Assembly: GCA_002733605.1 (NCBI GenBank)
Contig: NVWK01000001.1
Span: 237,837 to 301,836, forward strand
Origin: Robiginitomaculum sp.
Lineage (GTDB): Bacteria; Pseudomonadota; Alphaproteobacteria; Caulobacterales; Maricaulaceae
Direction of reading: 5' to 3'
DNA length: 64,000 nucleotides
Both the position numbers and the translations under genes were made by a program. The notes beneath the pieces are model-generated. The model did no database searches and was not told the origin of the DNA. It saw only the letters and a list, made by a program, of their open reading frames with translations. Positions 10,479 to 51,918 of this stretch are shown in pieces. The first letter of the stretch is position 1. Each line of letters opens with the position of its first letter.

Positions 10479-13091
10479 ATGAATTTAGTGATTGTAGAAT
10501 CGCCGGCGAAAGCCAAAACAATTGAAAAATATCTTGGCAAAGATTATACAGTACTGGCCAGTTTCGGCCATGTTCGTGATCTGCCCTCCAAGACAGGATC
10601 TGTACGTCCTGACGAAGATTTTGCTATGGATTGGTCCATAGACGCAAGATCCAAAACCCGTATTAATGACATCGTCAACGCTCTTAAAGATGCAGACAAA
10701 CTTATTCTCGCAACTGACCCGGATCGTGAGGGGGAAGCCATCTCTTGGCATTTGCTTGAAGTTCTAAACAAGAAAAAAGCCCTAAAAGACAAACAGATTG
10801 AGCGGGTCGTTTTTAACGCTATTACTAAAAAATCTGTCACAGATGCAATTAAGGCACCCCGTGAACTAGATATGGAACTGGTCGAAGCCTATCTGGCCCG
10901 CCGTGCTCTTGACTATTTGGTTGGCTTTACCCTGTCGCCCGTTTTGTGGCGCAAACTCCCCGGCGCACGTTCTGCTGGACGGGTGCAATCTGTAACCCTG
11001 CGATTGATTTGTGAACGCGAAACGGAAATCGAACAGTTCAACTCCGAAGAATACTGGACAGTTGCTGCCGACATTGCCAGTTCTAAAGGCAAGAACTTTC
11101 CCGCCAACCTAGTCTCGCTCAACGGTGAAAAACTTAAAAAGTTTAGCCTAAACACCGAAGCGCTCGCACACGCAGCCCGTGACGCGGTCAAAGCCGTTTC
11201 CCTCTCTATTACGTCCGTCGAAGCCAAACCGGTAAAACGGCATCCACAACCACCATTCACGACTTCAACTTTGCAACAAGAAGCCAGCCGCAAACTTGGT
11301 TTTTCCGCCACACGCACAATGCAAACGGCCCAAAAACTTTATGAAGGTGTCGATATTGGCGGAGAGACCGTGGGTTTAATCACCTATATGCGGACAGATG
11401 GCGTTTCCATGGTCGGAGAAGCCATTACGGAAGTCCGCTCGGCAATTGGTAATAAATTTGGCGCACAATACGTGCCCGACAGTCCGCGCGTTTACAAAAC
11501 CAAGGCCAAAAACGCACAAGAAGCCCATGAAGCAATCCGGCCAACCAGTTTCACCCGCACGCCTGACGCGGTGCGTCTTTCTGGCGATCAAGCCAAATTG
11601 TATCAATTGATCTGGAACCGGGCCACCGCCAGCCAAATGGCCTCGGCCCAACTGGAACGCACAACCATCCTTATCGAAGATAGAGAAAAAACTGTTGGCC
11701 TGCGCACCACCGGATCGGTCGTTCGTTTTGACGGGTTTTTGACCCTTTACGTGGAAAGCGGCCATGAAAAAGATGGCGATTCTGTTCGCCTACCTGCCGT
11801 CACATCTGGCGATATGGTCATTGGTGAAAAAGTGGACGCGGAACAACATTTCACCCAACCTCCACCGCGCTTCAGTGAAGCTTCTTTGGTCAAACGCATG
11901 GAAGAACTGGGCATTGGCCGCCCATCGACCTACGCCTCCATTTTGAAGGTTTTGCAAGACCGCACCTATGTGACCCTCGACAAACGCCGGTTTATCCCCG
12001 ATGCAAAAGGCCGCCTTGTTGTTGCATTTCTCGAAGAATTTTTTACAAAATATGTCCAATATGATTATACGGCTGAGCTTGAAGAACGGCTGGATTTGGT
12101 CTCTGATGGCAAGTTGGAGTGGAAGAAGCTCCTCGCCAATTTTTGGGAAGGATTTTCCGCCCATGTAGACGGGACAAAAGATCTACGGGTGTCACAGGTT
12201 CTTGACGCTCTCAACATCGCGCTCGCCCCAATGGTTTTCCCGCAAAAAGATGATGGCAGCGATCCGCGTAAATGCCCGTCTTGTGACAAAGGCGAATTAA
12301 GCCTGAAAGTCAGCCGTTTTGGGGCTTTCGTCGGCTGCTCCGATTACCCTGAATGCAAATTCACCCGCCCCTTCGGCCAAAACGGCGAAGAGGCAGCCCC
12401 CACTGAGGATAAAGTTTTGGGTGTTGATCCTGACAGCGGTCTGGATGTGTGGTTGAAAAACGGTCGCTACGGCCCGTATGTACAACTCGGCGAAGACAAA
12501 AAACCGAAACGGACCAGCCTGCCTAAAACATGGCCATATGAGGACATGGATTTGTTCAAGGGCCTAAAACTACTGTCCCTCCCGCGCGAGATCGGGGACC
12601 ATCCAGAAGACGGCAAAAAAATCGTCGGCTCTCTTGGTCGTTACGGCCCCTATATTCTGCATGCGGGCACCTATGCCAATCTACAAGACATTGACGAAAT
12701 GTTCGAAGTTGGTCTCAACCGGGCTGTTATTCTACTCGCAGAAAAACGTGCTAAAGGTGGGTCACGCGGAGCCAGCGCTCTGAAAGAATTAGGTAATCAT
12801 CCCCAAACAAATAAACCGATCCGCGTCATGTCGGGACGGTATGGCCCTTATGTCAAATACGAAAAAGTCAACGCAACCATCCCTAAAGACGTTGACCCAA
12901 ATGATGTGACATTGGAAATGGCCGTTGAGTATATTGCGGCCAAACAGGCAAAAGGCGGCAAGAAGAAACCGGCAGCCAAGAAAAAGAAGGCCCCAGCGAA
13001 AAAGAAAGCGGCGGCTAAGAAAAAAACACCTGCAAAGAAGAAAACAGCGGCTAAAAAACCGGCAACGGCAAAGAAAACCACCGCCGAATAA
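10479..13091 (+). CDS. topA: DNA topoisomerase I
   Basis: MNLVIVESPAKAKTIEKYLG start at 10479; toprim, GLITYMRTDG active-site region, C-terminal zinc ribbon, three GRYGPY repeats, Lys/Ala-rich tail. Confidence 0.96.
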   Translation: MNLVIVESPAKAKTIEKYLGKDYTVLASFGHVRDLPSKTGSVRPDEDFAMDWSIDARSKTRINDIVNALKDADKLILATDPDREGEAISWHLLEVLNKKKALKDKQIERVVFNAITKKSVTDAIKAPRELDMELVEAYLARRALDYLVGFTLSPVLWRKLPGARSAGRVQSVTLRLICERETEIEQFNSEEYWTVAADIASSKGKNFPANLVSLNGEKLKKFSLNTEALAHAARDAVKAVSLSITSVEAKPVKRHPQPPFTTSTLQQEASRKLGFSATRTMQTAQKLYEGVDIGGETVGLITYMRTDGVSMVGEAITEVRSAIGNKFGAQYVPDSPRVYKTKAKNAQEAHEAIRPTSFTRTPDAVRLSGDQAKLYQLIWNRATASQMASAQLERTTILIEDREKTVGLRTTGSVVRFDGFLTLYVESGHEKDGDSVRLPAVTSGDMVIGEKVDAEQHFTQPPPRFSEASLVKRMEELGIGRPSTYASILKVLQDRTYVTLDKRRFIPDAKGRLVVAFLEEFFTKYVQYDYTAELEERLDLVSDGKLEWKKLLANFWEGFSAHVDGTKDLRVSQVLDALNIALAPMVFPQKDDGSDPRKCPSCDKGELSLKVSRFGAFVGCSDYPECKFTRPFGQNGEEAAPTEDKVLGVDPDSGLDVWLKNGRYGPYVQLGEDKKPKRTSLPKTWPYEDMDLFKGLKLLSLPREIGDHPEDGKKIVGSLGRYGPYILHAGTYANLQDIDEMFEVGLNRAVILLAEKRAKGGSRGASALKELGNHPQTNKPIRVMSGRYGPYVKYEKVNATIPKDVDPNDVTLEMAVEYIAAKQAKGGKKKPAAKKKKAPAKKKAAAKKKTPAKKKTAAKKPATAKKTTAE

Positions 13092-47880: not shown

Positions 47881-49707
47881 ATGCGTTTTGGAGAACATTT
47901 TTTAGACGAGTTAAAAGCCCGCGTCCGCCCCTCGGACGTGGTCGGTAAGCACGTCAAATTAAAGCGCCAAGGGCGGGAATTCGCTGGATTATCGCCCTTC
48001 ACCAACGAAAAAACCCCCAGCTTTTTCGTCAATGATGAAAAAGGCTTTTACCATTGTTTTTCTTCCGGAAAACACGGGGATATCATCTCGTTCCTGATGG
48101 AAGTTGAAGGCCTGTCCTTCCCCGAAGCCGTCGAACAAATCGCCAATATGGCTGGAATGCCACTCCCCGCCGTCGACCCCGAAGCGGAAAAACGCGCCGA
48201 AGCCAACAAAAAAACCATTAGTTGGATCGAGCAAGCCCAAAACTTTTACCAAAAATCCCTGCACCGCGATCTTGGCAAAACCGCCCGTACTTACTTAAAA
48301 ACCCGCGGCCTCACCGGCGAGGACTGCAAACGGTTCGGCATTGGCTACGCCCCCGATAGTTTCAATGCCCTGCGCGATGAATTAACCCAGCAAAATGCAA
48401 AACTAGACCGCCTGATCGAAGCGGGCTTGCTAGTTAAACCCGATGATCCGTCCAAACAGCCATGGGATCGTTTCCGCCACCGAATCATGTTCCCGATCAC
48501 CGACCCGCGTGGACGCTTGGTCGCCTTTGGTGGCCGCGCCCTAAAAAAAGACGAAAAAGCCAAATATTTGAACTCGCCAGAAACCAATTTGTTTCACAAA
48601 GGCAAGCTCCTCTACCGCTACCCCGAAGCCCGCAAAGCCTTGTTAGCACCGGGCAATGGCGCGCGCGGCATGATCGTCGCCGAAGGCTATATGGATGTCA
48701 TCGCCTTGGCAAAAGCCGGATTTGAACACGCGGTCGCCCCCCTAGGCACCGCCCTCACCGAAGAACAACTGGATTTGCTCTGGCGCGCGGGGCCGGAACC
48801 CACGCTCTGTTTTGACGGCGACAAAGCCGGCCTACGGGCCGCTTTCCGCTCTGTCGAACGCGCCCTGCCCTTACTCAAACCCGGCCAAACACTCAGGTTT
48901 GCACTCCTGCCTGACGGAAAAGACCCGGATGATTTGATCCGCGAAAAAGGCCCTGCCGCCATGGGCGAAATCCTCGACAATTCCGTCCCGCTTGTCGACA
49001 TGTTATGGCGGCGCGAGATCGAAGCCGAGCGCCTCGATACTCCCGAGGCCAAAGCCGGATTAAAAGACCGCATTTTCGCAGCCCTACGAGAAATCACCCA
49101 TGAAGGTGTACGCGATCAATACAAAACCACTCTATTAGCCAAATTCGACGCCGAATATGGCCGCCCGAAATGGACACCCAATACACGCACCACAACATGG
49201 AATAAACCAAAGCAAAAACTCACCCAGTCCCAGATAAAAGGTGGCCAACCAGCCGCCCTTCGCACTGTGCGGGAACGCCGCATATTAGGCGCCGTGCTGG
49301 AATGGCCAAACCTGCTGGAACATGTCGATCAAACCCTGTTCGGACTCGAGTTTCACACCGAGAACTGCGCCAAACTGCAAAATTGTCTTTTAAACTACTG
49401 GCAGGACACAATATCGGTTGATAAACGTGCACTTCATGCCCATATAGAACAATACGGCTTGGAAGCCCTGCTAAAATCCTTCCAACGGGACCGAAAGCTA
49501 ATTATTTCGGGTTTGGGAGGCGTTGATGCGGATTTTAAATACCGTATTAAGGTTTGGCAGGCAGAAGCAAGGGCCCTAGAGGGTCATACGGGCAATATTG
49601 GTGCCCGAAACGAGACACGCGGACGAATGGCCGACACTATTCGTTCCGAAAATACGGACGCTTTACAGCGTCTCATGCGATCTTCTCGCGAAGAGCGCAA
49701 CGGATAG
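47881..49707 (+). CDS. dnaG: DNA primase
   Basis: NEKTPSFFVNDEKGFYHCFSSGKHGD, VAEGYMDVIAL, toprim region. Confidence 0.96.
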   Translation: MRFGEHFLDELKARVRPSDVVGKHVKLKRQGREFAGLSPFTNEKTPSFFVNDEKGFYHCFSSGKHGDIISFLMEVEGLSFPEAVEQIANMAGMPLPAVDPEAEKRAEANKKTISWIEQAQNFYQKSLHRDLGKTARTYLKTRGLTGEDCKRFGIGYAPDSFNALRDELTQQNAKLDRLIEAGLLVKPDDPSKQPWDRFRHRIMFPITDPRGRLVAFGGRALKKDEKAKYLNSPETNLFHKGKLLYRYPEARKALLAPGNGARGMIVAEGYMDVIALAKAGFEHAVAPLGTALTEEQLDLLWRAGPEPTLCFDGDKAGLRAAFRSVERALPLLKPGQTLRFALLPDGKDPDDLIREKGPAAMGEILDNSVPLVDMLWRREIEAERLDTPEAKAGLKDRIFAALREITHEGVRDQYKTTLLAKFDAEYGRPKWTPNTRTTTWNKPKQKLTQSQIKGGQPAALRTVRERRILGAVLEWPNLLEHVDQTLFGLEFHTENCAKLQNCLLNYWQDTISVDKRALHAHIEQYGLEALLKSFQRDRKLIISGLGGVDADFKYRIKVWQAEARALEGHTGNIGARNETRGRMADTIRSENTDALQRLMRSSREERNG

Positions 49708-49779
49708 AGGCGGGAATTCCCGTTTTGAAAAAACAGGTTCCAGCCTGTCTCTCTTGTAGGGGCGGGCACGGAATCTATT

Positions 49780-49818
49780 GGCGTTTAATTCAGGCGTCTA
49801 ATTATGGCGTTTAATAGA
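49780..49818. repeat. three tandem 13-bp repeats upstream of rpoD
   Basis: GGCGTTTAATTCA / GGCGTCTAATTAT / GGCGTTTAATAGA starting at 49780, 49793, 49806. Confidence 0.85.
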
Positions 49819-49842
49819 GCCGGTTTGTCCCCAAACCAGCTC
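49817..49842 (+). promoter_or_regulatory. leader hairpin just upstream of rpoD SD
   Basis: GAGC-C-GGTTTG-TCCC-CAAACC-A-GCTC, 10 paired positions with one C/A mismatch. Confidence 0.6.
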
Positions 49843-49860
49843 TAATTGGAGAATAAGTTT

Positions 49861-51918
<2,058 letters not shown>

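Follow-up and report, generated by a model that had tools for sequence, protein, structure and literature searches.

What role, if any, should be assigned to three regularly spaced 13-bp repeats that stand before the gene for the primary sigma factor of a Robiginitomaculum sp.? The repeats lie in the spacer between dnaG and rpoD, two genes whose identities are backed by curated models (Table 1), within a 64,000-nt stretch of DNA that was analysed as a whole and is referred to here as the window. A preliminary description had reported three units at exact 13-bp spacing running into a hairpin before rpoD, and its letters were correct; the last 4 bases of the third unit are also the first stem bases of this hairpin, which we call H2. 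A second, bulged hairpin directly 5' of the repeat units, absent from that description, is called H1, and a small one just past the dnaG stop is called H0. The entire spacer had a folding z of -4.5.

Table 1. Features of the dnaG-rpoD locus (positions are those of the window)
Feature	Positions	Strand	Basis
dnaG (DNA primase), gene 5' of the spacer	47881..49707	+	TIGR01391, 450.7 bits
H0, small hairpin GGCGGG-aauu-CCCGUU	49709..49724	+	-8.1 kcal/mol, z -1.95
H1, bulged hairpin GGUUCC-a-GCCUGUC...GGCGGGC-ac-GGAAUC	49735..49776	+	-23.8 kcal/mol, z -5.0
Repeat unit 1 of linker, GGCGTTTAATTCA	49780..49792	+	sequence; MAFFT 26-nt gap falls within the array stretch
Repeat unit 2 of linker, GGCGTCTAATTAT	49793..49805	+	sequence; 26-nt (two-unit) gap in relative G013
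Repeat unit 3, GGCGTTTAATAGA	49806..49818	+	MAFFT pairs unit 3 with the relatives' single unit TTGGCGTTGAATAGAG
H2, hairpin UAGAGC-c-GGUUUG-uccc-CAAACC-a-GCUCUA	49815..49844	+	-15.1 kcal/mol, z -7.3
Shine-Dalgarno of rpoD, TTGGAGAA	49846..49853	+	sequence
rpoD (primary sigma factor), ATG at 49861	49861..51918	+	NF004208, 860.8 bits

The exact spacing of the array is far beyond chance. Among the period-13 triples of the window it ranked first (30/39 matches), and in first-order-resampled windows the maximum was 28 matches, with none of 200 matching the array's 30. Its Tandem Repeats Finder score of 51 was the second-highest in the 64 kb, and a two-unit pattern with three mismatches allowed, designed after the array had been seen, matched the array only and nothing in 100 shuffles. 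The units have already diverged from one another, and the tandem-repeat scan found other short arrays in the window too; the top-scoring tandem repeat was a lysine/alanine-rich coding-type repeat with a period of 18-21 at 12952-13065. RpoD in the window (49861-49960) and in relatives L003-L012 has a low-complexity N-terminal tail rich in lysine and alanine, the length of which differs strongly between relatives, with AAKKP-type repeats in G010.

Comparison with relatives revealed that the array is found in none of those searched. The genus comprised 14 genomes, with sequence before rpoD present in 11 relatives (12 members including the window), and none of the 11 had more than a single unit (TTGGCGTTTAAT or a variant). 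For the closest comparable relative, G013, the MAFFT alignment to the window contained one gap of exactly 26 nt, the length of two units (window TATTGGCGTTGAATAGAG versus TATTGGCGTTTAATTCAGGCGTCTAATTATGGCGTTTAATAGAG in G013), although it is ambiguous from this gap which pair of units is the addition. The relaxed two-unit pattern, run across the window's own genome and 20 relatives, found the array site only and no second array in the window's genome, and the single unit occurred there at a background frequency of 19 matches versus 15 for a reversed control. A match resembling the repeats, in a different genus (G014, L034), was judged to be chance, as it consisted of reverse-complement words at 12-bp spacing in an unrelated context. 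Judged from these alignments, the array is probably a private and recent expansion, present only in this genome among those compared, in which a linker unit that is otherwise single-copy has been tripled.

The preliminary description had seen in the three 13-mers iteron-like sites for a regulator of rpoD, a view that the exact 13-bp spacing favours, and direct repeats of similar length and fixed spacing are indeed known from the iteron arrays of replication origins and plasmids. Unlike iterons, however, the repeats of the window are unconserved, have no other copies in the genome, and form the linker between two RNA hairpins; moreover, a 13-bp period does not correspond to a whole number of helical turns. 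With the array private to one genome and its unit at background frequency, regulator-binding iterons are unsupported, and absence from close relatives is the first of the two outcomes that the preliminary description itself had named as jointly refuting its view. We therefore dropped the regulator array as highly improbable. What the private occurrence, the diverged units, and the other short arrays of the window suggest instead is that the array arose by neutral slippage or duplication and has by itself no effect, which we consider likely and which is compatible with our favoured reading of the locus, RNA processing, because that reading concerns the hairpins surrounding the array.

For H2, the claim of a leader hairpin next to the Shine-Dalgarno sequence proved sound, but its true extent is longer than had been described: it was given as ending 18 nt before the ATG, while the stem extends two pairs further outward to a total of 12 pairs with one C.A mismatch. 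The fold was retained through compensatory changes in the two nearest relatives, G013 and G012, as in the inner stem, which is GGUUU/AAACC in the window and AGAUU/AAUCU in G013, and it was not strictly retained in G010. Covariation of H2 within the window clade, with G010 included as a fourth species, was weak: 79.5% of cells were paired, a share equalled in 13 of 500 shuffles, and 3 pairs were changed on both sides, a number equalled in 140 of 500. The shape of H2 differs among the clades of the genus, and in the consensus folds of two other clades a stem near the Shine-Dalgarno sequence has the single GGCGTT unit itself as its 5' arm. At the position of H0, the consensus folds of the genus clades contained different hairpins. 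In the best fold of the window, the GGC of the 13-bp unit pairs with the GCC of the first rpoD codons, a pairing that was dropped since the relatives, judged by eye, do not keep it.

Every one of the 12 genus members with sequence at the site had H1. Because the first MAFFT alignments had moved one of its arms by a base, its pairs were tallied in a table anchored by hand, in which 128 of 132 cells across the 12 species were standard pairs and compensatory types occurred at 4 of the 11 pairs; a row-swap control gave moderate support (120/5000). A covariance model built from 8 relatives (R1) found the held-out H1 of the window at the right place with an E value of 0.028, and in whole genomes its strong matches were only at rpoD, single-copy in 8 genus genomes, with one match in G009 (E 0.015) set aside as resembling coding sequence. 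The internal loop of H1 carries a conserved A. A pairing between UCCA in its 5' arm and UGGAG of the Shine-Dalgarno sequence was rejected, consisting of about 5 pairs only and having no compensatory change. In the window and in genus g21 of the same family, the dnaG stop and the start of H1 are at most about 10-30 nt apart, so that the structure would be part either of a dnaG-rpoD co-transcript or of a leader begun inside dnaG.

The same order of elements, from the dnaG stop through a long bulged hairpin, an AU-rich linker, a second hairpin, and the Shine-Dalgarno sequence to rpoD, was found in several genera of the family, with linkers such as CTAAACGTATTTTTAA in g17, CTAACGTTATTTTAAG in g21, and ACGCATTTTTAAGG in g19. 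A linker word (GGCTAA..GT.ATTTT) occurred at rpoD in g17 and g21 and at background elsewhere in the family. Consensus folds were better than those of column-shuffled alignments in 6 of 6 groups (0/200 shuffles in each), with z values of -8.2 for the window clade, -9.4, -5.3, -7.2 for g17, -11.4 for g21, and -6.3 for g19. For g21, the two hairpins contained 31 pairs, with 91.7% of cells paired and 9 pairs changed on both sides, a result reached in none of 500 shuffles, and the covariation was lost when the pairing partner was slid. In a whole-genome search, the g21 model (R2) recovered the spacer of genus g2 (G034) exactly between dnaG and rpoD (E 0.0012), and among the fetched loci it recovered two g17 spacers (E 0.003 and 0.05); it had no match in the window genus (g1), so that kinship of the g1 spacer with those of the other genera is argued from position and layout only. 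Strong R1 and R2 matches occurred only at rpoD, which ruled out a dispersed palindromic element. Both compensatory base changes across relatives and a fixed dnaG-rpoD context, as expected of a structured cis RNA, were found, and stems that are altered in sequence yet still paired argue for a role at the RNA level. No Rfam family reached its gathering threshold for the spacer, and a known RNA family was dropped after the weak matches below threshold had been judged chance.

Two further observations concern the spacers of other groups. In several species of g19 (loci L136, L142, L143, L145, L148, L166, and L169), CCGGC in the 3' arm of H1 could also pair with GCUGG of the Shine-Dalgarno sequence, a possible switch of about five pairs only, seen in one consensus fold. 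Families outside that of the window have other dnaG-rpoD spacers, and copies of TGATTCG / CGAATCA, which contain GANTC, the CcrM methylation motif, were seen in those of Rhodobacterales, often several per spacer (L095-L099, L102, L103, L105, L113, L118, L121-L123, and L126), and of some Rhizobiales (L067, L070, L114, L117, and L120). No such array was seen in the window's family.

The reading we favour, to which we give about an even chance on the strength of these comparisons, is that the spacer between dnaG and rpoD specifies a structured intercistronic RNA, most likely acting as an mRNA processing and stability element, and that in one lineage the linker of this RNA became triplicated. Transcription running from dnaG into rpoD would include the spacer, and the AU-rich linker flanked by the two stems would be the entry point of an RNase E-type endonuclease whose cut separates the messages of the two genes. 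After the cut, H1 would form the 3' end of the dnaG message and H2 a protective 5' stem on the rpoD mRNA, while the extra units of this genome would provide only a longer linker or added cleavage positions, with little effect expected. The stem-linker-stem layout expected of an RNase E site is present in the sequences and folds, most strongly in g17 and g21; the linker of the window is only moderately unpaired (mean 0.28-0.50) and moderately AU-rich (AU 0.56-0.62). RNase E is encoded in the window's genome, and the enzyme favours AU-rich single strands, also in Rhodobacter (PMC6238624).

This reading has parallels in known systems. The macromolecular synthesis operon of E. coli (rpsU-dnaG-rpoD), cited as a processed co-transcript in PMC10311766, contains the same gene pair with its spacer in the same position, and this spacer also has a GC-rich hairpin followed by AU-rich AAATATATAAGTACG. 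There is no evident sequence relation between the two, however, and the layout of two hairpins with H2 directly at the Shine-Dalgarno sequence is specific to the window family; in the window, no rpsU lies directly before dnaG. A comparable case within the alphaproteobacteria is the puf operon of Rhodobacter, where RNase E cleavage at AU-rich sites yields segments of unequal stability, although the genes are other ones and the sites described are found both within coding sequence and in an intergenic region (PMC6238624).

The main rival to processing is translational control by H2, in which H2 and the linker of a structured 5' leader would tune access to the Shine-Dalgarno sequence of rpoD, possibly with a protein or ligand bound on H1. 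H2 abuts the Shine-Dalgarno sequence in the clade of the window (clade A) and in g17, g19, and g21, and in the window fold UUUAAU can pair with AUUGGA and so carry H2 across it; the conserved A in the internal loop of H1 fits this proposal as well. Predicted accessibility of the Shine-Dalgarno sequence nevertheless ranged from 0.06 to 0.91 over the family without consistent sequestration, no mutually exclusive structure was kept across clades, and Rfam gave no match at threshold, so that we regard leader control as rather doubtful. Still less probable is an arrangement in which the linker is the rpoD promoter and H1 the dnaG terminator. It could account for UUGUUUU after H1 in clade B and UUUU after H2 in g17 and g19, but the + strand of the region held no sigma-70-like site (the scan's coverage did not extend to alphaproteobacterial promoter types), a -35 box would sit in the covarying arm of H1, and in clade C about 30 nt separate the unit from the ATG. 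Nor did H1 and H2 of the window resemble terminators, as neither the tail of H1 (CTATTGGCG) nor that of H2 (AATTGG) is the direct T run that follows a GC-rich stem; a terminator scan called neither of them, its sole + strand call being at 49733-49748 and overlapping only the 5' arm of H1. The attenuation proposed in the preliminary description thus finds little support in this species, where neither hairpin is followed by a T run, though some relatives have one. Its broader suggestion of RNA-based control of the primary sigma factor pointed in the right direction, as hairpins are kept by compensatory change in this and other genera, while the function is one that we infer.

A function seems likely for the hairpins, which carry the conserved signal, but probably not for the number of repeats; the striking repeats are probably a side event. 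Tentatively, since the chance falls somewhat short of even, the dnaG-rpoD spacer may represent an uncatalogued two-hairpin cis RNA that determines how much primary sigma factor is present and that occurs across several genera within a single alphaproteobacterial family, with the triplicated linker as a natural variant. Little is known of how bacteria other than E. coli control their housekeeping sigma factor, and in these marine stalked alphaproteobacteria the conserved and structured spacer that divides the primase gene from the sigma-factor gene marks a specific point at which their messages may be uncoupled.
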